A stretch of DNA of 37,193 nucleotides from the NCBI GenBank assembly GCA_031254315.1, contig JAIRUQ010000039.1, forward strand, positions 1-37,193, in the 5' to 3' direction. The position numbers and the translations under genes were made by a program. Position 1 is the stretch's first letter; the number at the start of each line of letters is the position of its first letter. This DNA comes from Treponema sp. GTDB lineage: Bacteria; Spirochaetota; Spirochaetia; Treponematales; Breznakiellaceae. This document shows positions 3,538-37,193 of the stretch, piece after piece. The notes beneath the pieces were generated by a model. The model was not told the origin of the DNA. It did no database searches and saw only the letters and a program-made list of their open reading frames with translations.

Positions 3538-4919
3538 TCACTGCTAGCGGCGCACAGCTTCATTCGCGTTACAATCCGCAAGCTGAGGCTGTGCGATATT
3601 TAGACTCTTTAAATCTAAAAAGTAACATAGAATGTTTTATTCTTATTGAACCGGGTCTTGGCTTCCTGATCCCCGTACTACAGGAAAGGTATAAAACAAG
3701 CAAAATCGTTGTCCTTCACATTGATGATTTCCCGCAAAAAGAAGGCATACCAACGTTAAACAGCATAGAAACATCCGATATACAAAAATTTCTTGAAACA
3801 CATATACCTGAAATTGACATTGACCGTATTAAAATAATTGAATGGCGAGCTTCCATGAATTTTTACAAGGACAAATATGTGAAAATTCTTTCGCAGGTGG
3901 TTGAATTCTTAAAACGCACAGACGCAGGAAAGAGAACAACCGCTGTTTTTGGAAGAAGATGGGTAAAAAACTTTTTTAGAAACATCGCTAATGTGAACCA
4001 TCCGCTCCTTTACAAACAAGCGGCAGTTCCGGTTATTGTTACAGGCTCCGCTCCCGGTCTTGAGCAGGCAATTCCTGTTATTCAAAAAGCACAAGAAAAA
4101 TGTCTAATTATAGCGGCATCTTCTTCGGTAATGGCGCTATCCGCGGGCGGCATAACGGCGGATATTGTAATCGCTACAGACGGCGGAAGTTGGGCGTTAA
4201 AACACATATATCCCTTTTACCGCAGTAACAACACCGCCGCGTTAGCTGTAAACCTCTGCGCCGCCCTGCCCTCTCAATGCGCGAACACTCCTACCCTGCT
4301 TATAAATGACGGAAGCTTTTGGCAGAGCCTCATTCTTCACGCGCTTTCCCTGCCTTCGCTAATCATTCCGCAGAGAGGGACAGTAACAGCGACAGCCGTT
4401 GAATTGGCAATGATTTTAAGTAGCGGGAATATTTACCTTGCCGGAATGGATTTTTCAGTAGATGACATAAGAACGCACACAAGACCGTACAGTTTTGACA
4501 GCCTGTTTTTCTCAGGCGCGACAAGATTAACGCCTTTTTATTCGCAGAGTTTCACACGTTCTTCTCTTCTTAGAGAGGGCGGAAGCATGGAAATTTACGC
4601 GCAGTGGTTTAAGTCTCAGCTTGCCAAATGGTCAAAAAAAATATTTTCCATTGGCGGCAATGCTATTTTTGACAGAGGACTGCCGCCGGAACATACGGAT
4701 AAAAAGAAAACATACGAATATTTTAAAGCCGCCACAGCGGGGGAAACATCTCTTTTTGTCAAAAGAGGGGTGGAGGCTTTGCTTTCTGCAATAGATAACA
4801 GGGAATACGAAAAAAACTTAAAACAAGAGCTTATTCCCCTTCTTTTTCCGGGAGAGGATAATGTAACGGAGAAGGAATTAAAGACGGCAATTAAAGAGAT
4901 AGCGGGGTTAAAAGATTAG
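3537..4919 (+). CDS. DUF115 (MptE-like / motility-associated glycosyltransferase family) protein, first paralogue
   Basis: The core has the DUF115 pattern: VIVTGSAPGLEQAIPVIQ (nucleotide-binding-like loop), ADIVIATDGG, a GTVTATAVELA stretch and GMDFSVDD. Family members resemble 6-hydroxymethylpterin pyrophosphokinase MptE; several are annotated as motility-associated glycosyltransferases in flagellated bacteria. The first conventional start is GTG 3591, but it is too late: upstream in frame the sequence reads AQLHSRYNPQAEAVRYL, which aligns with PLHSMIDPKHEAERLI near the N-terminus of the downstream paralogue. The frame is closed by TAA at 3516 and contains no ATG, GTG or TTG before 3591. I place the start at ATC 3537, which overlaps the upstream stop (TAATC, in place of the usual TAATG) with GGGG eight bases before; ATA 3534 and ATT 3522 are alternatives. 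From ATC the protein is 460 residues. Confidence 0.8.
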   Translation: MTASGAQLHSRYNPQAEAVRYLDSLNLKSNIECFILIEPGLGFLIPVLQERYKTSKIVVLHIDDFPQKEGIPTLNSIETSDIQKFLETHIPEIDIDRIKIIEWRASMNFYKDKYVKILSQVVEFLKRTDAGKRTTAVFGRRWVKNFFRNIANVNHPLLYKQAAVPVIVTGSAPGLEQAIPVIQKAQEKCLIIAASSSVMALSAGGITADIVIATDGGSWALKHIYPFYRSNNTAALAVNLCAALPSQCANTPTLLINDGSFWQSLILHALSLPSLIIPQRGTVTATAVELAMILSSGNIYLAGMDFSVDDIRTHTRPYSFDSLFFSGATRLTPFYSQSFTRSSLLREGGSMEIYAQWFKSQLAKWSKKIFSIGGNAIFDRGLPPEHTDKKKTYEYFKAATAGETSLFVKRGVEALLSAIDNREYEKNLKQELIPLLFPGEDNVTEKELKTAIKEIAGLKD

Positions 4920-4920
4920 T

Positions 4921-6591
4921 ATGAATAGTGTTAAACGTTATACTTTTAATAAATCCCGTACCGGGGAGATAGTTCCCGCCCTTTGTCTTCCAAACGGGGA
5001 CACTCAGCCGCTCCATTCAATGATCGATCCAAAACATGAAGCGGAGCGTCTTATAACCACAGCAGGCGACAGCGGCTTTTTAATTTTTCTCGGTCTTGGC
5101 GGCGGCTTTGCCCCCTCAGCCGCTCTTGAGCACACCAACGCGTATATTTTGGTAATTGATTTTGACAATGACGGTATAAATGAGCTTTTAGCAAGCAAAG
5201 ATTATTCAAAACTTGTTAAAAGCGATCGTTTTAGTCTTTTAATCGACCCTGATGCCGGTAAAATAAAATCTTTTATTCTTGAAAACTATAAACCTGCTCT
5301 TTGCGGCGGCATAAAAACAATCCCCCTGCGAACCAGAACGGAACATGACATGCAGAAATTTGAAACAGCCGCAGAGGTTATACAGACAGCGATTGAAATT
5401 GCCGCAGGGGATTACTCTGTTCAGGCGCACTTTGGAATGCGCTGGTTTTCCAATATCATCCGCAACATCAAAACCATAGAAAAATACAACGATAATTTTC
5501 GTTTTTGGGAAAGCTCGCCAATTAAAGAAGCGGCGATTGTCGCGGCAGGACCTTCGCTGGATCATCAAATGTCTTCCCTTGCTGAAAAAAAAGCACAAAA
5601 TGTTTTTATAATCAGCACAGATACCGCACTTGGCGCTCTTCTGCACAACGGAATTGAACCTGACGCGGTAATATCCATCGATTGTCAGCATATAAGCTAT
5701 TATCATTTTTTGGGATGCAATTTAAGTGATAATACTCGCTCTATCCCTCTTTTTCTTGATATCGCAAGCCCTCCCGTACTCTCTAACTTCCCGCTTCCGC
5801 CTGTCTTCTTTTTAAGCGGTCATCCCCTCGCGCAGTACATAAACGCTGCCTGGCGGCATCTGCCTCAGGTAGATACATCAGGCGGAAATGTAACTTACGC
5901 CGGGCTTTCACTCGCTCAAACGCTGGGAGCAGAGCGCATAACGCTCTTTGGCGCGGATTTCTCGTATATCAACTGTCAAACTTACGCGAGGGGCACTTAC
6001 ATCTACCCCTATTTTTTAAACAGACAAAACCGTCTCTCTCCTATGGAAGCGAAAATGTCGGTTTTTCTCTACCGCAGTCCGTTTCTTTTGCCACAGGACG
6101 GTCAAAAGAAAAACTACTACGAAACTTCGTCTCTTCGCTTTTACCGTAAAAATCTTGAAGAAAAAGTTTCCACAATGTCGGCTAATGTTGTATGCGAAAA
6201 AGGATTTGGAGCGACGGTAACAATTAGCAATGAGCGGGGAGCAATTAGCAGTGAGCAATTAGCAATGAGCAATGAAGAGAAGATAAACCACGGAGAAACA
6301 CGGAGGGAAAGCGAAGAGCCATTAGCAATTAACAGTAAACAGGGCGTAGTAAGCAGTGGGAGGGATTTTCTTGCGGGGTATAGGGATGATATTGTTTCAT
6401 TGCCGGAAGCGAATGGAGCGGAAAATTATTTAAAGAAATTAAATGTTAAAGAGAAACAAGTTTTTACTACTTTATTGCCTTACATGGCGGCTACAAAGAA
6501 GCGGAATACGGAGATGGGTGTCAATGATTTGATCGAAGAAGTAAAACGCCGCTGTGTTGAAGAAATTGAAAAAACTCTTGCGGTATTTTAA
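4921..6591 (+). CDS. DUF115 (MptE-like) protein, second paralogue, with repeat-derived insert
   Basis: The 556-residue protein starts at ATG 4921, one base after the stop of the first paralogue, so the two are translationally close and probably one operon. Features are LHSMIDPKHEAERLI (about 32-46), FLGLGGGFAPSAALEH, AIVAAGPSLDHQMSSL (DUF115 loop), PDAVISIDCQH, SGGNVTYAGLSLAQTLGAE and LFGADFSY. Two genes of one family in tandem suggest a pair acting on the same substrate, plausibly modification of a flagellar or surface component; this is inferred from family annotations. Residues about 434-480 (ISNERGAISSEQLAMSN and following) are encoded by a dispersed repeat and do not belong to the fold. 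The domain resumes at RDFLAGYRDD. The ending is TAA at 6589-6591. Confidence 0.85.
   Translation: MNSVKRYTFNKSRTGEIVPALCLPNGDTQPLHSMIDPKHEAERLITTAGDSGFLIFLGLGGGFAPSAALEHTNAYILVIDFDNDGINELLASKDYSKLVKSDRFSLLIDPDAGKIKSFILENYKPALCGGIKTIPLRTRTEHDMQKFETAAEVIQTAIEIAAGDYSVQAHFGMRWFSNIIRNIKTIEKYNDNFRFWESSPIKEAAIVAAGPSLDHQMSSLAEKKAQNVFIISTDTALGALLHNGIEPDAVISIDCQHISYYHFLGCNLSDNTRSIPLFLDIASPPVLSNFPLPPVFFLSGHPLAQYINAAWRHLPQVDTSGGNVTYAGLSLAQTLGAERITLFGADFSYINCQTYARGTYIYPYFLNRQNRLSPMEAKMSVFLYRSPFLLPQDGQKKNYYETSSLRFYRKNLEEKVSTMSANVVCEKGFGATVTISNERGAISSEQLAMSNEEKINHGETRRESEEPLAINSKQGVVSSGRDFLAGYRDDIVSLPEANGAENYLKKLNVKEKQVFTTLLPYMAATKKRNTEMGVNDLIEEVKRRCVEEIEKTLAVF
6221..6360 (+). repeat. Dispersed repeat inserted in frame in the second DUF115 gene
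   Basis: Tandem degenerate CAATTAGCAATGAGC units (6221-6275) are followed by ACCACGGAGAAACACGGAGG (6287-6306) and more AGCAATTAACAGTAAAC-like units (to 6360). The same sequence types recur outside genes in this window. The insert stays open in frame and adds about 46 codons. Confidence 0.75.
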
Positions 6592-7467: not shown

Positions 7468-8295
7468 TTAGCCAAACCCAAACGCCGCATAACCCACAAA
7501 AGAATCGGGGACTCCACCGCTCTCCTCTACATCGGTGCTGGTTGCGTATTCTAAAAGCCGTGCGCCGCCAAGAGATTCGGCTGATGCAAAACCCATCGCT
7601 CCCAGAACAGCGCCTGCAGAACAGGAAGAAGAGTCCCTCTCCGCACGGCGCAGGACTTCATCCGCGCTCCCTGATTCTACCGCTTTTATAAAACCGGCGT
7701 CGTTGACTTCGCGTACCCAGCGAAGAGCCGCCTTGCCGCTACCCTGCGGCGAAAAGCCGTAATTTGAACCATAGTGAGTTAAATCCGTGGAAGCAAGGAC
7801 ATTTATCCTGCGGTTTAATTTCGCCGCGATTTGCGAAATGGTTTTTCCCACTTCATAAGATTGAATCTCAGCGGACAGTCTCAGCCACAATAGTTTCGCT
7901 TTTGGGAAAAAATAGTGCGCCATTGGCAGAAGAACTTCGACAGTGTTGTCACGGTAATTGTCGCTCTCTCCGTCCAGTTCCTTAAACAGGGCGGCGCGAA
8001 GAGGCGCGTCTATTTCCATACTGCCGAAAGGAGTTCGCACAGCGTCCTCCATAGCGAAAAGAGGCGGAAGACCGGCGGGCAGATGTCCGCCAAGCACAAC
8101 CACAGTTTCCGCGTCCGGCTGAAGGCAGGACGCTCCGAGGGCGGCAACAGCGCCGCTGTAGTACCAGCCGGCATGAGGGGCGATAGCGGCACGGCAGACT
8201 CGCTTTGAAGTGCCAAATTTCGATAAAAAAGCGGAAATTGAAGCTGAATCGCGGGGAAACCAGCCCGCAGGCAACGAATAATCTCTTATTTGCAT
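7468..8295 (-). CDS. MEMO1 / AmmeMemoRadiSam system protein B family protein (paralogue 1)
   Basis: The 275-residue protein has the Memo fold signature: PHAGWYYSG (residues 40-48), GGHLP (69-73), NTVEVLLP (117-124), STDLTHYG (169-176) and CSAGAVLGAM (225-234). In Memo proteins the two His and the Cys at the equivalents of H41, H71 and C225 coordinate a metal, and all are present here. The bacterial family usually occurs with an AMMECR1 protein and a radical SAM enzyme, but neither lies in this window. The gene is transcribed away from the degenerate GGDEF gene with only 38 bases between starts. Biochemical function is unsettled. A second paralogue is at 31424-32260. Confidence 0.85.
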   Translation of the reverse strand: MQIRDYSLPAGWFPRDSASISAFLSKFGTSKRVCRAAIAPHAGWYYSGAVAALGASCLQPDAETVVVLGGHLPAGLPPLFAMEDAVRTPFGSMEIDAPLRAALFKELDGESDNYRDNTVEVLLPMAHYFFPKAKLLWLRLSAEIQSYEVGKTISQIAAKLNRRINVLASTDLTHYGSNYGFSPQGSGKAALRWVREVNDAGFIKAVESGSADEVLRRAERDSSSCSAGAVLGAMGFASAESLGGARLLEYATSTDVEESGGVPDSFVGYAAFGFG

Positions 8296-19946: not shown

Positions 19947-20096
19947 GAAGAAGAGATCAACGAATTACGCGAATAAACGCGAATTAAGACGAATAATTAT
20001 GGAAGTTAATTTTTATTCGTCAACTTATACTTCTCTTAAGTATTCATTCGTTTTAATTCGCCCTATTCGTGTAATTCGTTGACCCTCTTCTTTGCA
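19947..20096. repeat. GAATTACGCGAAT-type inverted repeat between convergent genes
   Basis: The left arm (19947-19996, with AGATCAACGAATTACGCGAA and GCGAATTAAGACGAAT) pairs with the right arm (20043-20096, reading GTCAACGAATTACACGAATA on the complement). Identity is roughly 85% over 50 bases. The right arm runs into the 3' end of the ATPase gene and supplies its last codons and TAG stop. Confidence 0.75.
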
Positions 20097-21991
20097 TAAT
20101 TACTCTTTGCCATTATTCGTCCACTGTTTATTAAAATAATAAAAGCGCCGATGTTGTGAAGGAATGCGCCTGCGATCGGCGTTATAATTCCGGCTCCGGC
20201 AAGAAATATCATAACAATACTTACGGAAAAGGCTAAAATAATATTTTGATAAATAACGCTCTTTGTTTTCTGCGCCAGTTTAATTGCATACGGAATGTTG
20301 GCAAGATTATTGTTCATTAACGCTATGTCCGCGCTTTGAATAGCGGTATCAGAGCCTATAGCCCCCATCGCTATTCCTATATGCGCCTTTGAAAGGGCAA
20401 GCGCGTCGTTGATACCGTCCCCGATAACCGTAACAATATGCTCTTTCATCATATCTTCAACATGCGCGAGTTTTTGTTCGGGTAGTAATTCGCATTGCAT
20501 TTCGTCAATTCCTACCGCAGTCTGTATTCTCTGTGCCGATTGAAAACGGTCTCCGGTAAGAAGGCACGTTTTTGACACGCCAATATTTTTTAATTGGCTT
20601 ACAACTTGTCCAGCCTCTTCGCGGGGCGTATCTTTAAATACTATACAGCCAAGTATTTTTCTGTTTTTTACAACCCAGTTACAGGTTCCCGCATCTTCAT
20701 ATTTATCGGAAACATCACAGCCAAGTGAGCGTAGCCAACTATAACTGCCAAAATAAATTATCTCATCTCCCTTTTTGCCCTCAAGACCCTTTCCGATATG
20801 CTCTTTAATTTCAAAATCTCTCCTAAAATCTTTTTTTTCACATAACGAAACCACTGATTTCGATATTGGGTGCAATGACGCATGAGCAACGCAGGCGGCT
20901 GTTGTAACCAGTTCGTCAAAATCAGCGGCTTGCTCCAGATGAAAACTGCTCGCCTCAAGAATTCCGTTCGTTATGGTTCCGGTTTTATCAAAAACGACAT
21001 AATCCGTTTCGCAAAGATGTTCCACAAACGATGAATTTTTTATAAGTATTCCCCTCTTTGCCGCGGCGGCAAGCACCGCAATCATTGGAGCGGAACTGAT
21101 AAGCAAAAGCCCGCACGGACAACTTGCGACAAGAATCGCGATAGCTCTTGTAATATCCTTTGTAAACAACCAGACAAGTAAGGCGGTAACAAGCGTAATC
21201 GGAATATAGTAAAACATAAACTTATCAACTATTTTAGTTTCAGGAATAGTAATGTGTTCGGACTGTTCAAGCAGTTTAACAATTTTTTGAAAAGACGTGT
21301 CCGAGTATTCTTTTGTAACTTTAACTTGAATACTGCCGTCAATATTTACGGTTCCGGCAAATACCGGATCGCCCGTTGAAACCGTTTTTGGTACGGATTC
21401 GCCGGTGAGAGATTTCTGATCTACGCTTGATACGCCAAAAATAACTTCACCGTCAACCGGAAAAGACATCCCGGGGCGAATTATAATTATATCGCCGCGT
21501 TTTAACTCTTTCGCGCTTATTTCAATTTCTGTTCCGTCTTTAAGCATTATCGCGTTATCCGCCTGCATTTTTTTCAAACCTTCAATCGCATCCCGCCCCC
21601 CCATTATGCTTTTTTCTTCTAAAAAGTGTACAAAGGTAAGAATAACCGGAATAAGAATAGCGAGTAAAAAATTCCCGCTTAAAACAGAAACTATCATCGC
21701 TATTGAAACAAGTATTTCCATAGCGTACTTCATGTTCTTGGAAACCAGCCCCTGTACTGCGGTAACAAAAACAGGGACTCCTATAATAAGAACGCCAGCC
21801 AAAAAAATAAAAGCGCGGACTATATCCTGCTCTGGAAAAATCTTCCCGTAAATAAAACCGGTGGCAAGACATACAAGCGCGCCAAAAAGAGACAAAATAT
21901 TATTTTGAAATTTTTCCTTATCTTTATCCGAAAGATATTCCCTGCCCGATTCAATTAATGAACTGCCGGCAATATTGTCTATATTTTTCAC
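20063..21991 (-). CDS. P1B-type heavy-metal translocating ATPase
   Basis: In 642-residue numbering the motifs are TGES (196-199, actuator), CPC (291-293, metal site in a membrane helix), DKTGT (335-339, phosphorylated Asp), HP (374-375) and GDGIND (524-529). There is no N-terminal metal-binding domain. The last two helices carry QNIILAF and LHNIGAFIILINSGR, not the Cu-type residues; this resembles the Zn/Cd or CtpC (Mn/Zn) groups, and the ion cannot be settled from sequence. I choose GTG 21991, with AAGGAG six bases upstream, over an ATG at 22039 that lies inside the preceding gene. It is the last gene of the SPFH operon. The C-terminal NELHE and stop come from a dispersed repeat. Confidence 0.9.
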   Translation of the reverse strand: MKNIDNIAGSSLIESGREYLSDKDKEKFQNNILSLFGALVCLATGFIYGKIFPEQDIVRAFIFLAGVLIIGVPVFVTAVQGLVSKNMKYAMEILVSIAMIVSVLSGNFLLAILIPVILTFVHFLEEKSIMGGRDAIEGLKKMQADNAIMLKDGTEIEISAKELKRGDIIIIRPGMSFPVDGEVIFGVSSVDQKSLTGESVPKTVSTGDPVFAGTVNIDGSIQVKVTKEYSDTSFQKIVKLLEQSEHITIPETKIVDKFMFYYIPITLVTALLVWLFTKDITRAIAILVASCPCGLLLISSAPMIAVLAAAAKRGILIKNSSFVEHLCETDYVVFDKTGTITNGILEASSFHLEQAADFDELVTTAACVAHASLHPISKSVVSLCEKKDFRRDFEIKEHIGKGLEGKKGDEIIYFGSYSWLRSLGCDVSDKYEDAGTCNWVVKNRKILGCIVFKDTPREEAGQVVSQLKNIGVSKTCLLTGDRFQSAQRIQTAVGIDEMQCELLPEQKLAHVEDMMKEHIVTVIGDGINDALALSKAHIGIAMGAIGSDTAIQSADIALMNNNLANIPYAIKLAQKTKSVIYQNIILAFSVSIVMIFLAGAGIITPIAGAFLHNIGAFIILINSGRIMAKSNYAKKRVNELHE

Positions 21992-22004
21992 AACTAACTC
22001 CTTC

Positions 22005-22961
22005 TTACGGCAATACGATAACCGGCGCTGAACTGCCATTCGGAACTATTATCGAAGCTCCGGTTTTAGCGAAAACAGCGGCGGCTCTCTGCCTGAATGT
22101 TCCAGCCATTATTATTTGCGGGTTACGGGCATATTGTCCGTATAAACCGTAAAACTCCGCCATTTCATCGCGCGCCCTAATCAGCTTCGTGTTCTGTTCT
22201 GAAATGGCTCTCTGTTTTGCCGCGCTTGCCTCGCCTTGCGCGCTGAGTATTTGAATTGAAGAACGTTCAAGGGCTTGCTGAATACCGGTTTGTTTTACAA
22301 CAGCCGCGTCTCTTACCGCTTCAAAGTATCTGATAGTTTCCGCCGGAGGTACAATCCCGGTTAATTCAACACCGGTAATTAAAACTCCCAATTTTAATTC
22401 ATCAATAATGAGTTGGGAATTATTTAACAGTATTACAGATAATTCCGCCCTGCCGCTTGTAAGAACTGAATCTATATCCATGTGAGTAATAGTGCGGGTC
22501 ATTTCCGCGCTTACAACACCGTCAATAGTTTTTCCCGCGTCGCTGGTGGAAAAAATATACTGTACCGGCTCTTTTATTTGATACTTTATCTTTACGCTTA
22601 TTAGTACAACATTGTTATCTCCTGTAAGCAAATAACCGTTTTTTTCAACATCTTTGTTAATTGAGCCGTCTTCAGTTCCGTAATGTGTAGTTATGTCCCT
22701 CTCATGTATGGTATGCACGGGGATTTTAATTACTTCGTCTATAAAAAACGGAAGTGCAAAATGAAGACCGGGTTTTTTTATTTGCTTCTCCGGCGTTCCT
22801 GTTATTCTGCCAAAGCGCAGTACAACAGCTTCTTCGTTGCCCTGTACGCGATATACGCCGGAAAGCACGATAAGAACTGTCGCGAAAACTACGATCCACT
22901 TAAAATATTTTATTATATATTGAAGTATTTGCGTAAAAGCCTGAAAATTCTTAGTGTTCAT
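22005..22961 (-). CDS. SPFH/HflK-like membrane protein
   Basis: The 318-residue protein has one N-terminal membrane segment (about 21-38) followed by an SPFH/band 7 domain: GNEEAVVLRFGRI, KPGLHFALPFFIDEVIKIPV, NNVVLISVKIKYQIKEP and GIVPPAETIRYFEAV. A helical segment rich in Ala/Glu/Gln (EASAAKQRAISEQNTKLIRA) follows, with the C-terminal GSSAPVIVLP. This is the HflK arrangement. HflK with HflC normally forms a cage around the FtsH protease, but no ftsH is present. Nine bases separate it from the HflC-like gene, and the ATPase gene follows immediately. Confidence 0.85.
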   Translation of the reverse strand: MNTKNFQAFTQILQYIIKYFKWIVVFATVLIVLSGVYRVQGNEEAVVLRFGRITGTPEKQIKKPGLHFALPFFIDEVIKIPVHTIHERDITTHYGTEDGSINKDVEKNGYLLTGDNNVVLISVKIKYQIKEPVQYIFSTSDAGKTIDGVVSAEMTRTITHMDIDSVLTSGRAELSVILLNNSQLIIDELKLGVLITGVELTGIVPPAETIRYFEAVRDAAVVKQTGIQQALERSSIQILSAQGEASAAKQRAISEQNTKLIRARDEMAEFYGLYGQYARNPQIIMAGTFRQRAAAVFAKTGASIIVPNGSSAPVIVLP

Positions 22962-22970
22962 TTTAACGCC

Positions 22971-23849
22971 TTAATTTATTCCCGTAATAACATCAAATGG
23001 GGATTCGCTTGCGCGCATAATTAAAATTGTGTCGGCGCTTACGGAATTTTCAAGCGCGATTAGTTTTTTAAGGAAAATAAACAGCGTTGAATTTGTATTG
23101 TACGCTTCTCCGTATATTTCAGCGATTCTTCTTTCTGTTTCGGCGTCAATTTCCGACGCTTCAAGCCTGCCTAGCGCGATTATTTCAGCGGCTCTTGCCG
23201 ACGCTTCGCTTACAATTATGGCGGAGTCCCGCTCTCCTTCCGCGACAAACTGCGAAACATATTTTTGCCTGTCCGCTATCATCTGACCAAAGACGCTTTG
23301 AATGTTTGCGTCGGGGAGAGCGATCCGCTTGATCTTCAATGTTTGAATTTCAATGCCGTAATTTTCCATTGCGGATTGGGCGGCTTTTTCTTCGATAGCC
23401 TCGCATATTTCAACCAGTTTTATGTCATCAAGATTTGTAGAAACGAGCGAAGAGAGCGTATAATTTCCAAGAACGCCGTTTTTCGCGCTCGCCGCAAGAT
23501 CATTAAGATGCCTTTGCGCTATTTCAAAATTACCGGTGCTGGTATAAAATGTTTTAGCGTCTGCTACGCGCCATACAATATAAGTTTGAAGAATGATATT
23601 AATTTTGTCGTTTGTAAGGGTTTCGTTATAACCCGAATCCATATATTGATTTCTGGTATCATAGGTTATTAACTTATCAATAGGCAAGGGGAGTCTGAAA
23701 TGTAAACCTGCTTGCGTATGTACATTAACAATTTTCCCAAAGCGCGAAATAACTGTACAAAAACCTTCTTTTACCGTAAAGGTAAATCCGGCGGCAATGA
23801 CAATCACTACAAAAATTAAGGCAAACAACAACTTAAAAACTTTATTCAT
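22971..23849 (-). CDS. SPFH/HflC-like membrane protein
   Basis: The 292-residue protein has an N-terminal membrane segment (about 5-25), then KEGFCTVISRFGKIV, AGLHFRLPLPIDKLITYDTR and NIILQTYIVWRVADAKTFY. It continues with an RQKYVSQFVAEGERDSAIIVSEA helical region ending in NTNSTLFIFLKKLIAL and ILIMRASESPF, all in HflC order. AGGAGAAGG lies just before ATG 23849. It is the middle SPFH gene of three and presumably hetero-oligomerises with its neighbours. Confidence 0.85.
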   Translation of the reverse strand: MNKVFKLLFALIFVVIVIAAGFTFTVKEGFCTVISRFGKIVNVHTQAGLHFRLPLPIDKLITYDTRNQYMDSGYNETLTNDKINIILQTYIVWRVADAKTFYTSTGNFEIAQRHLNDLAASAKNGVLGNYTLSSLVSTNLDDIKLVEICEAIEEKAAQSAMENYGIEIQTLKIKRIALPDANIQSVFGQMIADRQKYVSQFVAEGERDSAIIVSEASARAAEIIALGRLEASEIDAETERRIAEIYGEAYNTNSTLFIFLKKLIALENSVSADTILIMRASESPFDVITGIN

Positions 23850-23861
23850 AACCTTCTCCTG

Positions 23862-25745
23862 TTAAAAATCACCCGGATAAACAGTATTTCCTCCGCCGAT
23901 AATAGCTCTTGATATTCCGGCTTCCATTCTGGGTGAAAAAACGTATACTTTATTACCGTTGATGATCCTTTCATAAGTATCAACGTATTTTACAATCTGC
24001 ATAGCTCTTGGGTTTGCCGCGTAGGCTTCCATCGCCGCATAATAAACAGCCATTTCTTTTTGGGCAGAACTGACCCTGTCGTATCTTCTGGCAATGGCGT
24101 TGACAACAGATGTTCTACCTTCCTTTTGCGCGTCAATGATTGTTTTTCCTGCTTGCGTTTCCGCTCTTGTGATAATTGTATTTTTAACGACTAAAGCGGT
24201 TACAACCCTTTGATAAATGTCCGCAATCTCAACGGGAGGGTGTATGCTTTCAATAATAACCTGCAGTACGGAAAGCCCAAGTTTGTTTGAAATACAAAAT
24301 ACCGAAAGCTCATCAGCTACCTCTGCTGAAAGAGAATTGCGATCAACACTTAAGAACTCATCAAGAGTAGTATCGACAGTACGGTTCATCAGAGCCTCAT
24401 AAGCAGACGCATTCAATACCGCTTCGGGGTTTGTGCAGGTTTTCACATAACTGTATAAATCTGTAATTATATAGGTAATTTTTATGTTTACCGCTACCAT
24501 CTCATTACCGTTTCCGGTAAGAAGCGTATTTTCTCCGCCATCGTGCGCCCGTGTCCATAAATAATTCTCGCTGTACGGCGCTTGGTATCCAATTTGCATA
24601 GAGTTGACTCTGCGGACATCATAAATATCCGCTTTATCAATGGGATAGGGAAGTTTAAAGTGTATGCCCTCTCCAATTACGGCGGAACTGTCCAACTTTC
24701 CAAAACGGTAAACAAGAGCCTGCTGATGAGGCTGAACGACAAACACCATTGTTGACAAAAACAAAATAAAACCGAGACTCAGTATTACTCCCGGCATAAT
24801 TTTTAAAGCGTACTTTATTGTGTACAGCGATTTAAGGGAAAAACTCTGCCTTACCTCTTGTGTATCAAAAACGCTGTCTTGTTTTTCTGTCTTTTCTTTT
24901 TTATTTTTCGTTATTAAGGTACGGGGAAACAGAGTGTAGTTAAAATCCCCAAGAATATTTTTTTTAAGGATAGAAAAAAATATGTTAAACGCCAGCGAAA
25001 CAATCAGATATACCAGAGCGGCGCAGTAAACCCACTGTAATACGCTTAAAATATTTAACTTTAACGCGGAGGACACCGCGATAACTGCCGCATAAAAAAA
25101 TGAAACATAAGAAAAAAATGTGAGCATATCATGGGAAGTTTTATCGCCTGAGTACACGCCTGAATCTTTTCTCATTTTTAAGTAGATTAAAGCGATACAG
25201 GGAAAGACCATCAGAAGGACAGCGGTAACGATGGTATAGCGGTAATACTCGGTAAGGACTAAAGAAAAACTCGCGATCATTTCGGCTATACGCAAGAAAG
25301 CTATGACGCAAAATAATACGATATACGCTATTTCACATATACGTAAAAAAAGAGGCGTTTTTGTTTGGCTTTGATTTGAAACAGTTTCTTTTTGTATTTC
25401 TATCAAGCCGTCAGAAACTTCCGGAGTTGCCGGAACTTCTACGGTTTCTTTTACCGTTTCATCAGCCGGTTCCTCCTTTGTAACAGCTTTATGCAATTTC
25501 TTTAGTAGTGCGCCGATCTTTTCGGAAACATTATATTTAAGCTCTAACTTTTTGAGTTCACAAAACATAGCAAAAAGGACAAGGAAAAGCGATATTGTGA
25601 ACATGAGTTTTACAAGGCTGAGTATTATAACACCGCTTCCGCCCGCGCTTAGAATATATAGAAGAATAACCGCTATAATTCCCAGCGTAATTGGAAACTT
25701 TCTTGTTTGGGATGTTGGTGCTTCTTTTTCTTTATCGTCCGGCAT
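23862..25745 (-). CDS. Large SPFH/HflK-like protein with extra multi-helix N-terminal region
   Basis: The 627-residue protein has a C-terminal half (about residues 320-610) that is an HflK-type module: a membrane segment, QPHQQALVYRFGKLD, GEGIHFKLPYPIDKADIYDV, EMVAVNIKITYIITDL, SIHPPVEIADIYQRV, an Ala/Glu-rich helix and a closing GGNTVYPGDF. The first 320 residues are unusual. They hold about six membrane helices (for example 18-38, 45-65, 133-158, 165-190, 207-230, 235-260) and a charged linker rich in Glu/Val/Thr (85-125). I know no standard HflK with such a region. It is the first gene of the operon and overlaps none; no clear ribosome binding site precedes ATG 25745. Confidence 0.8.
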   Translation of the reverse strand: MPDDKEKEAPTSQTRKFPITLGIIAVILLYILSAGGSGVIILSLVKLMFTISLFLVLFAMFCELKKLELKYNVSEKIGALLKKLHKAVTKEEPADETVKETVEVPATPEVSDGLIEIQKETVSNQSQTKTPLFLRICEIAYIVLFCVIAFLRIAEMIASFSLVLTEYYRYTIVTAVLLMVFPCIALIYLKMRKDSGVYSGDKTSHDMLTFFSYVSFFYAAVIAVSSALKLNILSVLQWVYCAALVYLIVSLAFNIFFSILKKNILGDFNYTLFPRTLITKNKKEKTEKQDSVFDTQEVRQSFSLKSLYTIKYALKIMPGVILSLGFILFLSTMVFVVQPHQQALVYRFGKLDSSAVIGEGIHFKLPYPIDKADIYDVRRVNSMQIGYQAPYSENYLWTRAHDGGENTLLTGNGNEMVAVNIKITYIITDLYSYVKTCTNPEAVLNASAYEALMNRTVDTTLDEFLSVDRNSLSAEVADELSVFCISNKLGLSVLQVIIESIHPPVEIADIYQRVVTALVVKNTIITRAETQAGKTIIDAQKEGRTSVVNAIARRYDRVSSAQKEMAVYYAAMEAYAANPRAMQIVKYVDTYERIINGNKVYVFSPRMEAGISRAIIGGGNTVYPGDF

Positions 25746-25769: not shown

Positions 25770-25815
25770 AAAAAAAGGGAATAGGCAGGCAGAAAACCTA
25801 CCTGCTCATATCCCC
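25770..25815 (-). terminator. Terminator after the metallophosphoesterase gene
   Basis: GGGAATAGGCAGGCAG (25777-25792) pairs imperfectly with CTACCTGCTCATATCCCC (25798-25815). On the minus strand the stem is followed by a run of T (complement of 25770-25776). A T-rich stretch on the other side could make it bidirectional. Confidence 0.65.
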
Positions 25816-25830
25816 TATTTTTTTATTTTT

Positions 25831-27678
25831 TTACTTTGTTACCGTAACCCAATCATACGGAGTGTTTTCATCGAAGCTATAAGGCTCATCAGCTCCGGGA
25901 CTGGTTCCAGCCGCAGTGGCGATAGCGTATGTTCTGAATGTTATGCTATTGCCGTTGACTTCACAGATGGAGTAACTCGGTATATACGGCTGAACATAAG
26001 TAGCGTTGGAGACCGGCAAGCCACCATCTAAGTACGCTTGACTGCCATATAAAGTGGAACCACCATTTGCCGTGCTCTCACCCAGGTACGGATACACAGC
26101 GTTATCCTTCACATACAAGGTATTAGCATAGTTAAAAGTTCTATCCGAGCTTACAGCGTAATACTTTAACCCACTTCCTGTTGTGAATGTAAGATAGATG
26201 GGCTTACCGGAAATAGCTGTTACCGTGTGACCATCCACTGATGTTGTAGATCTATCGGGTACGGAGACCTTGCCGTCATCCATACCTGCCAACGGATAAC
26301 TGCGAGCATATACATGGTCATGTCCGGCAAGAACAAAGTCAACATTGAACTCGGACATCAGAGTCTCAAAACCGGCTTCTACATAATACTGTATATCCCT
26401 GTCAGCAAGATGGTCAGCAACGCTGGCGGTGGACTTGTGGTGCTGGACAATAAGCCAAGTGAATGTGTTTCTGGGATGCGCGGCTATAGCGGCTGTGAGA
26501 GTTTGCCTGAAATATCCAATATAAGGTTCCGCAGTTGTAGTGCTAGTTGGATAGGGCGCGGTGTTCAGTACCACAAAGAGTATGTTGTTGTAGAGATAGA
26601 AATAGTTCCCCATCATGTTTACTTCTGTGCCGCCTGTAAGCGTCTGCTCATTGGGCAGATTGTAATGATACCTAAAATTAAGATGGGCATCGTGGTTACC
26701 GGACACAGGGGCAAACGGAAGATTCCTGAGTCCCGGCGGAGCAAAGAAGAGTGTATATTCGGCTTCATTGCCGCCGCTGGCATCGACCTGATCCCCGCCG
26801 CTGGCGATAAAGCTAACGCCTTTAGCTACAATCTTTGTCATCGTTTCTATCCAGCCTGCGCCGGTGGTTGCACCGCCTTGGGGGGTGTAGCGATTATTAA
26901 CGTCCCAAGTGGTTGCGTGAAGCTGTGGGTCAGCTATTACAGCGAAACTCCAAGCTCCGGTAGAAGCCGGAACCTTGTAATCGTACATCTGGCTCCAGTT
27001 TACATCATCGTTACACACTGAATATTGATAGCTTGTATTAGGTCTTAGTCCCGTTACCGTAATTTTATGGGAAGTATTACTGCCTGCGACAGCTACCTGC
27101 CCCGTTGCTGTAATTACTCCATAGCCTTCATCGCGGGTTCCTCTAATAAACCGGACTTTAGCAACCTTGCTTACCGTACTAGCGCCAGCGGCATACCAGT
27201 TAAGGTTAATCTCAGTTGTGGTTTTTCCCGGAGTCAAACCAAGTGTTAGCGGGGTAAATGCAGTTCCCCAGCTAAGCGCATCATCTCCACTTTCGTAATT
27301 TTTAGCAATAAGCACTAATGATCCGAGTTGTTTGGCGGAGTTAAAAGCGCTCAAGGCGGCATTAAGAGCGTTGTAAGCGCTGTTAATGGACCCCTGTCCT
27401 GTCGCCTCTCCTGCCGCTGTAATCGCGGTGTTCAAGGCATCAAGAATAGCTTGGGGAACCCAGTAGTCTTCCGTTTCAATGTCTTCGCCGTCCTCACTGC
27501 CTTCTACTCCGGCTTTAGCGGCGGTTGCGGCGGATATCAACGTTGTCAATTCTTCGGCAGTGTAGTCTGTGTTACCAGCCTCGGGGTCACAAGCTCCCAC
27601 AAAAATAGCGAAAGCCACGACTAAAAGCAAAGCGGTCAGTTGTAAAACTGACGATCTCTTCATTTTCTTCAACGACAT
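25831..27678 (-). CDS. Lipoprotein metallophosphoesterase (purple acid phosphatase-like)
   Basis: The 615-residue protein has a lipoprotein signal with lipobox VGAC (Cys 30). Next is a helical FIVAR-like segment (about 38-118), then a fibronectin-like/PAP N-terminal domain (about 150-235, with GLRPNTSYQYSV). The metallophosphoesterase domain contains VIADPQL (D250), GGDQVD (294-299), GNHD (327-330), HHKS (413-416) and GHDHVYARS (452-460), a complete metal-ligand set. It probably hydrolyses phosphate esters outside the cytoplasm, attached to a membrane. GGAGG precedes ATG 27678. The gene is divergent from the outer membrane protein gene. Confidence 0.88.
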   Translation of the reverse strand: MSLKKMKRSSVLQLTALLLVVAFAIFVGACDPEAGNTDYTAEELTTLISAATAAKAGVEGSEDGEDIETEDYWVPQAILDALNTAITAAGEATGQGSINSAYNALNAALSAFNSAKQLGSLVLIAKNYESGDDALSWGTAFTPLTLGLTPGKTTTEINLNWYAAGASTVSKVAKVRFIRGTRDEGYGVITATGQVAVAGSNTSHKITVTGLRPNTSYQYSVCNDDVNWSQMYDYKVPASTGAWSFAVIADPQLHATTWDVNNRYTPQGGATTGAGWIETMTKIVAKGVSFIASGGDQVDASGGNEAEYTLFFAPPGLRNLPFAPVSGNHDAHLNFRYHYNLPNEQTLTGGTEVNMMGNYFYLYNNILFVVLNTAPYPTSTTTAEPYIGYFRQTLTAAIAAHPRNTFTWLIVQHHKSTASVADHLADRDIQYYVEAGFETLMSEFNVDFVLAGHDHVYARSYPLAGMDDGKVSVPDRSTTSVDGHTVTAISGKPIYLTFTTGSGLKYYAVSSDRTFNYANTLYVKDNAVYPYLGESTANGGSTLYGSQAYLDGGLPVSNATYVQPYIPSYSICEVNGNSITFRTYAIATAAGTSPGADEPYSFDENTPYDWVTVTK

Positions 27679-27971: not shown

Positions 27972-29447
27972 ATGAAAAACAAAGTTTTTACACTTGCATT
28001 ATTAATGTTAATGATCGCGTCTGCGGGATTGTGGGCGCAGAATTTGCCGGGCGGCATTTGGACATCGCCGCAAAGTAGCGCTACAGAGGGAAGATACCGC
28101 AGTAACGCGGATGACTTTATTCGTCCGGATGCCTATACCGGCTTAAGACTTAACAATTGGTTTGGAATGGTTGCCTTTAATAACCTCGGTAGTACAGACC
28201 TTTCAATGGCTACTTTAGGTTTTGCAACCAAAGTAAATGATGTGTATATCGGCACATTTTACTCAGGCAATTTCTGGACATGGGCTCCTACTAACTACTA
28301 CACAGAAACTTCCACAACCCCAACCGGAGGTCCTGCCGGAATCTATGATGTCTACAGTTCCATCAACGTTGTACCAAACCCCATTAACAATGTAGCTTTA
28401 TTAATAGGAGTTGCCGATATGGGCTTTCGGCTTACCTACCGGACCAACTATCAATCGTTTACTAATAGCAATATTGTAGTTGGAAGCCAATTATATAGAA
28501 ACTATCATGCGGAAGAAGGTTATCTGGCTCCGCAGATTGCATGGGCAATGGCAAAGGATTTGGTAACAGGAAAAGGAATAAGACCTTATGTAACCCTTGA
28601 CCTTGTATTCGACCGTAATTATCAAAAAACAGAAACAGCCGGCTCCGACGGTACTGCTACAGGTGAAAAAATATTACGCTCACAAAATCACTTTGACCCG
28701 TCTCTTGGTATCGGCTTGGGAGGCTATACTTTCTATAATAAAGATGGTTTTAGAGGCTCCTTCGATCTTGACTATGTATTTACCATGAAATTATATGACA
28801 ATGAGTACAGCTATGTAGAAGGCGGACAGTACAAGACAGGCAGATTTAACGGAATATTTAGCCCCGGTAGTTTTCCTTATACTGAACAAAGTAATATGTT
28901 TCACTCGCTTACCCCTTCCATCAGCGGTTCATGGAGCAAAGACAGGCTCGCGCTCAAGTTTAAACTTAACATGGTTTTAACGCTCACCACAGATGAATCA
29001 AACACTATGGCATTAAACGGTTCTAGTCTGGTCCGTAACGGGAATAGCGATTTAACTACTACCTTTACTTTCCGCCCCGACTTAAGGCTTTCCTTACAGT
29101 ACAAGCTTATTCCCGACCGGCTTACCCTGAATACCGGCGCGCGGATTCAGGCTACATCCATTACTCTGACTACGATTGATCATAAATACTATAACGACGG
29201 CGCTGAAACTAGAGGTCAGGCGACAACAATACATCAAAACTCATTTGGCGACAACTCAGGCGGCGGCAGTGGTTTCGCCAGCCGTTTCAACATTGGCGTT
29301 ACCTATAACTTTACAGAAAATGCGTGGGTAGAAGCCCTTACCGGAGTGTCAGGCTCATATGGCAACAAATCCGCCATTGAAGTATTTGGTACCGGTGATA
29401 ATGGTTTATTCTCTTTTGGAAGCATTTTGGTTGTACTTAAGTTCTAG
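27972..29447 (+). CDS. Predicted beta-barrel outer membrane protein
   Basis: The 491-residue protein has a clear Sec signal (cleavage expected after GLWA, residue 22). The mature part is rich in alternating aromatic, polar and Gly residues, with patterns such as GMVAFNNL, AKDLVTGKGIRPYVTLDLVF, FRGSFDLDYVFTMKLYD, LALKFKLNMVLTLTTD and FNIGVTYNFTENAWVEAL. It ends in LKF; a C-terminal aromatic residue is the usual outer membrane assembly signal. No named porin family is recognised, but such barrels are common in treponemes. AAGGAGA lies seven bases before ATG 27972, and a strong terminator follows, so it is monocistronic. Confidence 0.8.
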   Translation: MKNKVFTLALLMLMIASAGLWAQNLPGGIWTSPQSSATEGRYRSNADDFIRPDAYTGLRLNNWFGMVAFNNLGSTDLSMATLGFATKVNDVYIGTFYSGNFWTWAPTNYYTETSTTPTGGPAGIYDVYSSINVVPNPINNVALLIGVADMGFRLTYRTNYQSFTNSNIVVGSQLYRNYHAEEGYLAPQIAWAMAKDLVTGKGIRPYVTLDLVFDRNYQKTETAGSDGTATGEKILRSQNHFDPSLGIGLGGYTFYNKDGFRGSFDLDYVFTMKLYDNEYSYVEGGQYKTGRFNGIFSPGSFPYTEQSNMFHSLTPSISGSWSKDRLALKFKLNMVLTLTTDESNTMALNGSSLVRNGNSDLTTTFTFRPDLRLSLQYKLIPDRLTLNTGARIQATSITLTTIDHKYYNDGAETRGQATTIHQNSFGDNSGGGSGFASRFNIGVTYNFTENAWVEALTGVSGSYGNKSAIEVFGTGDNGLFSFGSILVVLKF

Positions 29448-31423: not shown

Positions 31424-32260
31424 TTACACGTACGAAAGTTCGCTGTAGTAAACAGTATTATTTTCCGCGCTGACTGCGCTAACAAGGTTCTCGGGAAATG
31501 AACACTCATGGGTTTTGTCGAGAAGCCCGCTCTCAAAAAGAGCGGCGACAAGAGCGCCGCCGCAGGCGTTTAGCCGCCCGTCAAAAATGGCGGAGGCAAG
31601 AGCAGGGGCGTTTTTTTCAGAAAATAGCCGTAAACTTTCTTCTGCTAGGAGCCGCGCTGTCTTCTGGTCTGTATCGCATGAAAGATTACAGGAAACCACT
31701 ATCAATGTTTCGTCCAGAACGGGCTTAATTACGGATTTTAACCCTTGGGCAAGGTCGTAAATGTACTGGGCGTTCGGCTGACCCATTAAAATAGGGACAA
31801 TTGACGCATCCGGGAAGCAGTATTTTACAAAAGGAAGGAGAATTTCTATCGAATGTTCGCCAAGGTGGGGAATATCGTTGATTTCAAAGAAATTACCGCG
31901 AAATTCAAGCTCTTCGGACATTTCACGATCTACGGGAATATTCCCCAAGGGAGTGTTAAAAGAGTGAGAATTTGATAAAAACAGCCCTTTTTCCCTTTTA
32001 TCATGGATTGGACCAAGGAGTACCACACGCCTTATTGACGCACTCCTTCCCATTGCGGAGGAAAAAGCTCCTGCGGCAAGCGCTCCTGAGTAACTCCATG
32101 CCCCATGAGGGGCAATAATCGCCTGAGCGCAACCTCCCCTGCCCTCTTCAAGCCCAAAAGACCTTAAATAGTCGAGCATTTCTTTCCTGTCTTCGGGATA
32201 AAACATTCCGGCTCCTACCGGACTTCTAATCCGCTTCTTTTGGGCAAGCAAAGCTTCCAT
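31424..32260 (-). CDS. MEMO1-family protein (paralogue 2, altered active-site region)
   Basis: The 278-residue protein keeps the family length and fold markers: SPVGAGMFYPED, IIAPHGAWSYSG (48-59), LLGPIHD (81-87), GEHSIEILLPF (134-144) and NACGGALVAAL (231-241). The two metal His and the Cys have equivalents (H52, H86, C233). The usual SSDLSHY motif reads SCNLSCD (190-196), so its Asp and His are replaced by Asn and Cys. Compared with paralogue 1 the sequence is very different, so the pair is not a recent duplication. It starts at ATG 32260 and is followed by the LEA lipoprotein. Confidence 0.8.
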   Translation of the reverse strand: MEALLAQKKRIRSPVGAGMFYPEDRKEMLDYLRSFGLEEGRGGCAQAIIAPHGAWSYSGALAAGAFSSAMGRSASIRRVVLLGPIHDKREKGLFLSNSHSFNTPLGNIPVDREMSEELEFRGNFFEINDIPHLGEHSIEILLPFVKYCFPDASIVPILMGQPNAQYIYDLAQGLKSVIKPVLDETLIVVSCNLSCDTDQKTARLLAEESLRLFSEKNAPALASAIFDGRLNACGGALVAALFESGLLDKTHECSFPENLVSAVSAENNTVYYSELSYV

Positions 32261-35411: not shown

Positions 35412-36470
35412 TCAAGTTGAGGCATTGCCGCCGCCCCTGTCCTTTTTGCCTGATTTCTTTTTCTTTGTTAATAATTTTAGCGATTTGTCAAAATCAGAAA
35501 CAATTTTTTGAGTTTTATTGAAAATTTCATACTCACCCTCAGCCTTTTCATCTGCTTGTGCTTTTGAAATTTTGCCTTTGTTCGCAAGAATTTTAAATTT
35601 TCTAAATGCCAAAAACTCATTTACACTTGCCGCAAACTCATTCATGGTGAAAGTATTCTCGCTCTCAATTAGGTCTTCGATATAATCAAAGTATCCCGTA
35701 ACCGCTCGTTCCAAACGCTTTATATCCTTCTCAGATAAATAGTTTTTTGCGATAATTACATCCGATTTCAAAATGCGTCCATCGGGGGCATTTTTCCAAG
35801 TTGTCAGCCCCATATAATCCTTATCGCTATCCGCGCCAGTATAGATTATTTCGGCGGCAGTCTGTCCCGCTATCGCATAATGAAACTTGTTCTGAATGAT
35901 CGCGTAAAAGTCCTGCGTTGTCTGCGAATTTTTATCATAATCAATGCTACATTCAGCGAAAATATCGGTTATTTGCTGCCAAATTCTTCGCTCGCTTGCG
36001 CGAATGGAACGAACACGATCCAACAATTCCCTAAAATAGTCTTTACCGAAAAACATTTGTCCTTGTTTTAACCGCTCATCGTCAAGTACAAAGCCTTTTT
36101 GAATGTATTCTTTTAACGTCTTTGTTGCCCAAATCCTAAAATGTGTTGCCCTCCCTGAATTCACACGATAACCCACAGAAATTATCACATCCAAATTATA
36201 ATATTCGATATTGCGCCCAACCTGCCGTTCGCCTTCATTTTGAACTGTCCAATTTTTTTGGACAGTTGCCCCTTGTTGAAGTTCGCCCTCCTCGTATATG
36301 TTCTTTATATGATAACTTACCGTTCTTTTATCAACACCGAAAAGTTCCGCTATATCCTTTTGTGTAACCCACATAGTCTCGTCTTTAATGGTCACTTCAA
36401 CATTGACATTGCCCTGCGGGGTAGTGTATATCAAAAACAGCGGTTTTTTCTTGACATTACCCATTCTCAT
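35412..36470 (-). CDS. RhuM family protein in a type I restriction-modification locus
   Basis: The 352-residue protein matches RhuM-type proteins: PQGNVNVEVTIKDETMWVT, QKDIAELFGVDKRTVSYHI (helix-turn-helix-like, about 39-57), the RVNSGRATHFRIWATKTLKEY core, and ASERRIWQQITDIFAECS. KFHYAIAGQTAAEIIYTGA follows, and the tail is Lys-rich. RhuM genes are often found between hsd genes; their role is not established. The start ATG overlaps the hsdM stop by four bases (ATGA), showing translational coupling with the methylase. Confidence 0.85.
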   Translation of the reverse strand: MRMGNVKKKPLFLIYTTPQGNVNVEVTIKDETMWVTQKDIAELFGVDKRTVSYHIKNIYEEGELQQGATVQKNWTVQNEGERQVGRNIEYYNLDVIISVGYRVNSGRATHFRIWATKTLKEYIQKGFVLDDERLKQGQMFFGKDYFRELLDRVRSIRASERRIWQQITDIFAECSIDYDKNSQTTQDFYAIIQNKFHYAIAGQTAAEIIYTGADSDKDYMGLTTWKNAPDGRILKSDVIIAKNYLSEKDIKRLERAVTGYFDYIEDLIESENTFTMNEFAASVNEFLAFRKFKILANKGKISKAQADEKAEGEYEIFNKTQKIVSDFDKSLKLLTKKKKSGKKDRGGGNAST

Positions 36471-37193
36471 TTTTCCCCTTCTATCTCCGCGACAATGGCG
36501 GCAATTTCACGGCGCAGAACATTTTCACGGGCGACAATACGTTCAATTTCCATATTCAGTTTGGTGATGTCCACAATTTCCCGCTTGTCCTCTTGCTCGA
36601 CATAGGTGCTGACAGAGATATTGTAATCCTGGGCGGCAATTTTGCTGTTGGGTACAAGTTTGGTAAAGTATTGTTTTGTTTTGCGGCTTGTGTAAGCGGC
36701 AACGATTTTTTCGATGTGAGTTTGCGTCAATTTATTGCTGTTTGTAACTTTTATAAATTCGCGGCTTGCGTCTATGAACAGTGTGGAGTTTTCACTTTTT
36801 GCCTTTTTAAGAACCATAATACAGGTGGCGATACTGGTACCGAAAAAAAGATTGTCCGGCAGTTGGATTATACAGTCGATGTAGTTGTTGTCCACAAGAT
36901 ATTTGCGGATTTTTTGCTCCGCACCGCTACGGTAAAGTATACCGGGGAAACAGACAATCGCCGCTGTCCCGCTTGTTGCAAGCCATGACAGGCTGTGCAT
37001 AATAAACGCGCGATCGGCTTTCGACTTGGGCGCAAGTACCCCTGCGGGAGAGAAACGGGGAGCGTTAATCAACAGTGTGTTTTCATCGCCCGCCCATTTT
37101 ATCGAATACGGGGGATGTGAAACGATAGCTTCAAGCGGCTCATCGTCCCAATGAAGGGGTTCGGTCAGCGTATCGCCAAGAGCGATGTCGAAT
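36467..37193 (-). CDS. hsdM: Type I restriction-modification DNA methylase HsdM (5' part beyond window)
   Basis: The frame is open to the right edge, so about 242 C-terminal residues are visible. The order FDIALGDTL, EAIVSHPPYSIKWAGDENT, INAPRFSPAGVLAPKSKAD, FIMHSLSWLATSGTAAIV, FPGILYRSGAEQKIRKYLV and LPDNLFFGTSIATCIMVLKK is typical of HsdM. The TTG at 37072 is internal. Motif IV, normally NPPY, reads HPPY (codon CAT). The C-terminus is a helical tail (about 36470-36560). The downstream gene is RhuM; hsdS and hsdR are not seen. The methylase would modify adenine at N6. Confidence 0.9.
   Translation of the reverse strand, partial: FDIALGDTLTEPLHWDDEPLEAIVSHPPYSIKWAGDENTLLINAPRFSPAGVLAPKSKADRAFIMHSLSWLATSGTAAIVCFPGILYRSGAEQKIRKYLVDNNYIDCIIQLPDNLFFGTSIATCIMVLKKAKSENSTLFIDASREFIKVTNSNKLTQTHIEKIVAAYTSRKTKQYFTKLVPNSKIAAQDYNISVSTYVEQEDKREIVDITKLNMEIERIVARENVLRREIAAIVAEIEGEK

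Follow-up and report, generated by a model that had tools for sequence, protein, structure and literature searches.

What do three SPFH proteins do when they share an operon with a metal pump? HflKC, which is tied to the FtsH protease, is the best known bacterial SPFH case, and the question is raised by contig JAIRUQ010000039.1 of Treponema sp., a stretch of 37,193 nucleotides that was analysed as a whole (hereafter the window) and is one 37 kb contig out of 127 in a draft genome of 3.1 Mb. Four genes follow one another on its minus strand, from 25745 to 20063, and encode a large HflK-like protein (HflKL), an HflC-like protein, a second HflK-like protein (HflK2) and a P1B-type metal ATPase. 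As described below, three HflK/HflC-type SPFH proteins and metal transporters form a conserved gene system, in which one of the SPFH proteins is joined to a transporter by covalent fusion. The product of the window operon is probably an SPFH assembly dedicated to a divalent-metal exporter as its client, and not to a protease.

Three SPFH genes and a P1B ATPase in one operon

A preliminary description of this DNA had reported four genes on one strand with gaps of 9–13 bases, a large HflK-like protein with about six extra membrane helices, and a CPC-type metal ATPase as the fourth gene. All of this was borne out. The intergenic gaps are 12, 9 and 13 nucleotides with the ATPase start at GTG 21991, six hydrophobic segments precede the SPFH anchor helix of HflKL (hydropathy profile, with segment ends set by hand), and the ATPase carries CPC and DKTG motifs and scores 491.4 bits against TIGR01525, the cut-off of which is 346.25. 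To judge from the sequence, the GTG at 21991, which lies behind AAGGAG, is most likely the start of the ATPase, and the orthologues at loci L122, L123 and L124 start likewise. The operon contains the following features.

23862..25745, minus strand: HflKL, large HflK-like SPFH protein, operon gene 1 (627 residues; Band_7 at residues 336–532, E 3e-20)
24966..25697, minus strand: N-terminal region of HflKL with six predicted membrane helices (residues ~17–260; hydropathy and charge count)
24150..24740, minus strand: SPFH/Band_7 domain of HflKL, predicted to be periplasmic (Band_7 match)
22971..23849, minus strand: HflC-like SPFH protein (292 residues; Band_7 E 1.9e-26)
22005..22961, minus strand: HflK2, second HflK-like SPFH protein (318 residues; Band_7 E 5.4e-18)
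20063..21991, minus strand: P1B-type metal ATPase (642 residues from GTG 21991; above the TIGR01525 cut-off)
21113..21121, minus strand: codons of the CPC metal site of the ATPase (read from the sequence)
20978..20989, minus strand: codons of the DKTG phosphorylation site of the ATPase (read from the sequence)

The SPFH/Band_7 family (PF01145) exceeds its cut-off in all three SPFH proteins; none of the three, however, reaches the NCBIfam equivalog cut-off for HflK or HflC. HflK2 and HflKL score 143.7 and 101.5 bits on TIGR01933 (hflK), both under its 159.4, and the HflC-like protein is a near miss, 0.8 bits short with 133.6 bits against 134.4. The last of these matches Escherichia coli HflC structures at E 2e-23. 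Both the HflC-like protein and HflK2 have a single N-terminal anchor helix. In HflKL, the predicted cytoplasmic loops contain 4, 11, 4 and 11 lysine and arginine residues and the two outer loops that were counted contain none; because the positive charges fall in the would-be cytoplasmic loops, a periplasmic position of the SPFH domain is expected, like that of HflK. The six helices and positive-inside loops before the anchor should thus keep an N-in, SPFH-out topology. The genome holds eight Band_7 matches, including a canonical hflK–hflC pair on contig C109, and two FtsH peptidase genes, both away from the operon; a profile scan found no FtsH within the 37 kb of the window.

The ATPase contains both the E1-E2 ATPase (E 3.8e-45) and HAD domains and lacks an HMA domain. 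Its motifs are CPC in transmembrane segment 6 (TM6), HNIGA in TM8, serine at the TM7 lysine position, and DKTG. We take the P1B-2 and P1B-4 motifs to be lysine in TM7 with DxG in TM8, or SPC with HEGST, and the window ATPase fits neither; HNIGA in TM8 and serine in TM7 do not point to a particular metal. The protein matches the structures of CopA (PDB 7r0g) and ZntA (PDB 4umv) with E values below 1e-70, and differs from both in the missing HMA domain and the unusual TM8 motif.

HflKL is present in five of the 39 genomes of the genus, the window genome included, and the other four proteins are 53–55% identical to it. The order HflKL, HflC, HflK2, P1B ATPase is kept in all five, the contig of one of them (L039) ending inside the ATPase gene, and this constancy argues that the operon is not a product of chance. 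Orthologues are 77–80% identical for the ATPase, 70–76% for HflC, 58–62% for HflK2 and 50–52% (by blastp) for HflKL, and the outer flanks of the operon differ at L122 and L123. The pump is therefore a fixed neighbour of the SPFH genes, as had been proposed, its gene being adjacent in 5/5 genomes with the operon.

A metal transporter fused to HflK in relatives

The trio recurs in two other genomes of the order, G045 (locus L040) and G192 (L041), where the N-terminal part of the large protein is a Cation_efflux domain, that of the cation diffusion facilitator (CDF) metal transporters. Further loci for such a CDF–HflK fusion lie elsewhere in the phylum (L080 in G257 and L081 in G273). Cation_efflux and Band_7 were both found by Pfam in 4/4 fusions tested, and the CDF domain is above the TIGR01297 cut-off in three of these four. 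The fusions put the SPFH anchor after the CDF helices, presumably about where the cytoplasmic C-terminal domain of a CDF transporter would be. At L041 the order is response regulator, kinase, parvulin-type protein, CDF–HflK, HflC, HflK, ArsR and P1B ATPase; from CDF–HflK on, this is the window order with an ArsR gene before the ATPase gene.

A single scan of a species-genome collection yielded 34 CDF–HflK loci, and 32 of the 34 matches reach both the CDF and the SPFH halves; those at L112 and L115 do not, and the match at L109 covers both domains only in part. The scan query was an alignment of three fusions, with two peptide patterns in the CDF half, and it selects for CDF by design; the finding is therefore that the SPFH half follows. 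By record title the loci fall in at least seven phyla, although labels of metagenome-assembled genomes (MAGs) may be wrong. Titled hosts include Alphaproteobacteria (among them Rhizobium metallidurans and Chelativorans), Chloroflexota and a complete WWE3 chromosome, and MAGs of Deferribacteres, Marinimicrobia, Actinomycetota, Deltaproteobacteria and Spirochaetae. The conjugative plasmid NZ_CP018172 of Aquibium oceanicum carries the cluster beside copper chaperone and SCO genes, annotated as two copies of 'FtsH protease activity modulator HflK', one HflC, a peptidylprolyl isomerase and a heavy metal ATPase. In the plasmid search the fusion was covered to at least 80% in one of 112 records, the other 29 among the matches listed covering the SPFH half, and phylum searches with the fusion likewise returned mostly SPFH-half matches.

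The residues H40, D44, H146 and D150 (L079 numbering; HDHD), which from YiiP and ZnT protein work we take to be the CDF metal site, are kept in 33 of 35 aligned fusions; the 35 rows include L041, L079, L080 and L081 and leave out L112, L113 and L115, which are cut off or frame-split. The exceptions are L102, with glutamine at the first position, and L080, which reads MNHH. The L080 protein (213–2633), with its metal site so lost, also has ~270 extra N-terminal residues (DUF7847, below cut-off), and its transporter domain may have turned structural. Locus L107, on the WWE3 chromosome, belongs to a reduced genome of 0.9 Mb that keeps CDF–HflK, HflC, HflK, a parvulin gene and a nearby P1B ATPase gene, with eight P1B matches overall.

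Neither Pfam nor hhalign detected a CDF domain in the first SPFH protein of the window operon, and its six-helix region shares with CDF only helix count and orientation. No Pfam family exceeded its cut-off in any of the five window-type N-terminal regions, the best being Per1-like with E 0.0022 in one of them, and a PDB profile search with the region gave a best E of only 3.6. By eye, the final four helices of the region and the loop leading into helix five can be aligned with CDF, but a degenerate CDF domain was rejected because hhalign did no better than with reversed controls.

Neighbouring genes and descent

Neighbours were counted at the 21 of 34 scan loci that have full 10 kb flanks, the 13 loci with shorter flanks being left out. 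HflC and then HflK stand behind the fusion in all 21, and all 21 have a gene for a parvulin-type protein, with Rotamase domains and, in some, a SurA_N-like start. A P1B ATPase gene lies within ~10 kb in 16/21, three of the 16 (L091, L095 and L096) being cut at the edge of the stretch; response regulator and kinase genes are found in 16, PCuAC-like genes in 13 and SCO-like genes in 11 (the last two kinds by blastp at E 1e-8). The preliminary description had held that its proposal would fall if ATPase and SPFH genes were usually apart in related genomes. The outcome favours the proposal: they are together at these 16 of 21 loci, as opposed to none of 20 canonical hflKC loci. For 18 of the 21 loci (L085 left out) an expectation was calculated from each genome's own density of P1B matches; the ATPase is nearby in 13 of them against ~1.3 expected, a figure for which all matches were used, so that split genes were over-counted.

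The control set comprised 20 canonical hflKC loci from the same order with ~10 kb per side, L151 being short at one end, and in all 20 the K and C pair was typed as canonical by best blastp match. These loci contain P1B in 0/20, FtsH in 0/20 and the phosphoesterase described below in 1/20. Nor did the scan find FtsH in the window or at any of 42 loci of the system. Because the canonical pairs also have no ftsH within ~10 kb, its absence beside the operon, which had been offered as evidence for another partner, is uninformative and was dropped as an argument. The larger proposal, that the SPFH proteins may form a membrane compartment for metal transport, is partly supported: it loses that one argument and retains the fixed ATPase neighbour (5/5), to which the HflK–CDF fusion, often with a P1B ATPase near, is now added.

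The metals carried in the relatives appear to be divalent. We read 11 P1B ATPases of CDF loci, and all have what we take to be divalent-metal motifs, of two kinds. CPC with lysine and (A/G)DxG occurs in the ATPases of L040, L041, L079 and L088, in the second one of L111 (L111 and L040 are one and the same contig) and in that of L107, judged by TM7–8; SPC with HEGST occurs in those of L094, L105, L106, L110 and L114. A copper-pump label was rejected, since copper motifs occur in none of the 11, with TM6 of the L107 protein outside the stretch read. An ArsR/SmtB metalloregulator gene adjoins the P1B gene at L041 and L111, and RND-like efflux genes were seen by eye at L106 and L110.

A tree built from 90 SPFH rows, those of HflK serving as outgroup, unites window-type HflC with HflC from 14 CDF loci in one clade (support 98/95), separate from the canonical proteins, and puts the HflC of L081, from the G273 CDF–HflK locus, beside the window type (99/91). 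Unrooted trees of HflC only place canonical HflC on one side of a branch, with support of 99/98 with L081 and 94/84 without it. HflKL and HflK2 of the window type have long branches and fall into groups of their own, not with canonical HflK or HflC. Across the 14 CDF loci, distances of the three SPFH genes are correlated (Mantel 0.88, 0.90 and 0.92; 0/2000 permutations as high), which indicates that the trio travelled as a unit. The window operon looks like a reduced relative of the CDF–HflK system with a P1B pump as its fourth gene.

Upstream of the operon lie three further features.

25783..25803, minus strand: terminator-like hairpin with T run, between the phosphoesterase gene and HflKL (terminator scan; weak)
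25831..27678, minus strand: exported metallophosphoesterase, purple-acid-phosphatase-like (Pur_ac_phosph_N and Metallophos above Pfam cut-off; lipoprotein-like leader by eye)
27972..29447, plus strand: exported protein with no Pfam hit (55% identity to L124:6034-7575)

The terminator scan of the region gave 6 sites against a chance expectation of 6.4, and a promoter scan gave 19 against 14.3 in shuffled sequence; neither was used. In G452 (L124), the orthologue of the 27972..29447 protein ends 11 nucleotides upstream of the HflKL frame. At all four window-type loci that have sequence upstream, an exported-looking, calcineurin-type metallophosphoesterase gene lies near the operon. In the window it is the gene immediately upstream; in G452 it is one gene off and 63% identical to the window's; in G447 (L122) it is divergent, in two copies, ~1 kb off; and in G457 (L123) it is two genes upstream, with a 5′-nucleotidase domain. 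In G273 (L081), one of three spirochaete CDF loci with context, such a gene is divergent from CDF–HflK and is followed by the parvulin gene. These five genomes have 5 to 12 such genes each, which makes the adjacency unlikely by chance. It was noticed post hoc, however, the window and G452 share orthologous neighbours, and the profile was made from genes that it later found, so that only the control count (1/20) and the misses are informative. The phosphoesterases near the operon hint at the metallation of exported enzymes; their absence from L041 and L111, the remaining spirochaete CDF loci with context, and from all 34 scan loci counts against them as clients.

Other genes in the window were noted in passing. 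An acidic protein of 862 residues with tandem repeats of ~54, 72 and 180 bp is encoded at 949-3537 (plus strand), and two adjoining MptE-like proteins (PF01973), which we presume may be motility accessory factors, at 3591-6591 (plus strand). Two Memo-like genes (PF01875) occur within the 37 kb, at 7468-8295 and 31424-32260 (both minus strand). Near the contig end, a RhuM-family gene (35412-36470, minus strand) and a partial N6 DNA methylase frame (36467-37072, minus strand) overlap by 4 nucleotides and are perhaps part of a restriction system.

A putative SPFH assembly for metal export

How might such an assembly work? The three SPFH proteins would co-assemble into a periplasmic dome like that of HflKC, with the exporter at its base, so that the P1B ATPase would release metal beneath the dome. 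In the relatives, a ring of fused CDF antiporters would also release metal there, and a parvulin chaperone may have been added for client folding. The dome would prevent free diffusion of the metal up to its expulsion or its transfer to exported proteins. Because there is no CDF site in the six-helix region of the window protein, that region may be a structural or docking domain, with pumping left to the ATPase. Expulsion for detoxification is favoured by the ArsR genes, the RND-like efflux genes at L106 and L110, and the plasmid setting; metallation is favoured by the phosphoesterases, the parvulins and the copper-chaperone-like genes. That the dome is a metallation chamber, in which pumped metal is held and loaded onto exported metalloenzymes during folding, is a doubtful extension. 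In this genus, the exported phosphoesterases encoded near the operon would serve as its clients, and the parvulins and the PCuAC-like copper chaperone gene at 13/21 full-flank loci point the same way in relatives. Padilla-Benavides 2013 reportedly provides a precedent for a P1B ATPase that metallates secreted proteins.

Several observations weigh against a metal-exporting assembly or against its kinship with the CDF–HflK system. Within the genus, 34/39 genomes have no match, many of them incomplete. Five of the 21 full-flank CDF loci have no P1B ATPase gene within 10 kb, and the only P1B match of G273 sits on another contig. The CDF loci cannot be counted as independent, since L082-L089 are close copies. 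The parvulin family (Rotamase_3, Pfam) has its sole match in the window genome on another contig, C95. Comparison of the six-helix region with CDF by hhalign gave a probability of 0.04–0.13% (local and global), where reversed controls gave 0.83% locally and 0.08% globally, and the HDHD site is missing in both of the window-type proteins aligned (two of five). Finally, the tree program warned of possible false joins between long branches in the SPFH tree, the one between L081 and the window type among them.

The window operon may instead have arisen by convergence, as a separate SPFH–P1B pairing of this lineage that shares with the CDF–HflK system only the general idea. The N-terminal region without detectable CDF homology, the long branches and a TM8 motif unlike those of the CDF-locus ATPases would all fit such an origin, as would the lack of a parvulin gene beside the operon. 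That lack comes from a profile scan whose profile also missed the parvulin gene of L081; a single-protein query had missed the one in G273, and the search was therefore repeated with the Pfam family. The gene order nevertheless matches that of L041 except for ArsR before P1B, the anchor is preceded by as many helices in the same orientation, and HflC groups with the CDF loci at 98/95 and with the G273 locus at 99/91. We regard convergence as possible but not probable. A different objection is that the genes are ordinary neighbours, duplicated HflK/C genes co-transcribed by chance with a P1B ATPase and without joint function. The genome would supply the parts, with 10 P1B matches (some of which may be pieces of one gene) and its eight Band_7 matches, but the 5/5 conservation within the genus amid different outer flanks at L122 and L123, the count of 13/18 against 1.3 in other genomes and the covalent CDF–HflK fusion make this very unlikely.

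The trio might also still serve FtsH in quality control, as a specialised HflKC that guards the metal ATPase or metal-damaged membrane proteins or hands them over, in which case the operon link would reflect control of pump turnover. Its SPFH domains are of the HflK/HflC type, the window HflC matches the E. coli structures at E 2e-23, the genome encodes FtsH at two other places, and canonical hflKC pairs are likewise not found near ftsH (0/20), so that distance proves nothing. Such a role would not, however, need a metal transporter fused into HflK; moreover, a canonical hflKC pair is present separately in the genome, and the lineages of the trio lie apart from canonical HflK and HflC. We therefore consider this alternative unlikely, and prefer a dedicated SPFH assembly around a metal exporter.

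Among known systems, the HflK–HflC–FtsH complex of E. coli (PDB 7vhp, 7wi3, 9cz1 and 9cz2), with the HflKC assembly and its openings described in PMC13220708, shares with the window the HflK- and HflC-type SPFH domains, the placement of hflK and hflC in one operon and the single N-terminal anchor helices of HflC and HflK2. It differs in having two SPFH genes where the window has three, one of them with six extra helices (CDF in relatives), and no P1B ATPase in the operon; the window proteins are also under the equivalog cut-offs and in separate lineages. The PacL–CtpC efflux platforms of mycobacteria likewise combine a membrane scaffold and a P1B ATPase in one operon, and the authors of PMC9374683 and PMC13043812 suggest that PacL1 acts as a flotillin-like scaffold and describe complexes of high molecular weight; the window scaffold genes, in contrast, are true SPFH genes. 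In the flotillin-associated rhodopsin cluster, an SPFH-superfamily gene is fixed beside, and co-transcribed with, a gene of an ion-transport membrane protein family, but that flotillin is not of the HflK/C type, rhodopsin is not a metal transporter, and the passages of PMC10308929 that we used contain no fusion. SPFH–NfeD operons, which appear in a treatment of 12 SPFH subfamilies (Hinderhofer et al. 2009, PMC2636767), also give SPFH genes a fixed operon partner; there the partner is NfeD, and the terms ATPase, P-type, transporter, heavy metal and cation do not occur in the main text of that paper. By titles and abstract openings in the open-access literature, no published description of SPFH–metal transporter fusions or operons was found among the matches listed. 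What appears to be new is a putative HflK/C-type SPFH assembly with metal transporters in the place of the protease, the nearest ideas being the PacL–CtpC platforms and the flotillin-associated rhodopsin.

The role of most bacterial SPFH proteins is still open, as PMC12005517 states. A transporter built into a cage-type chain offers a direct handle on whether SPFH domes confine small solutes and not only proteins. The system would also add a component to metal-handling clusters, one that is now annotated as 'FtsH protease activity modulator HflK' and is easily overlooked. These cage-type proteins may organise metal traffic rather than protein breakdown.

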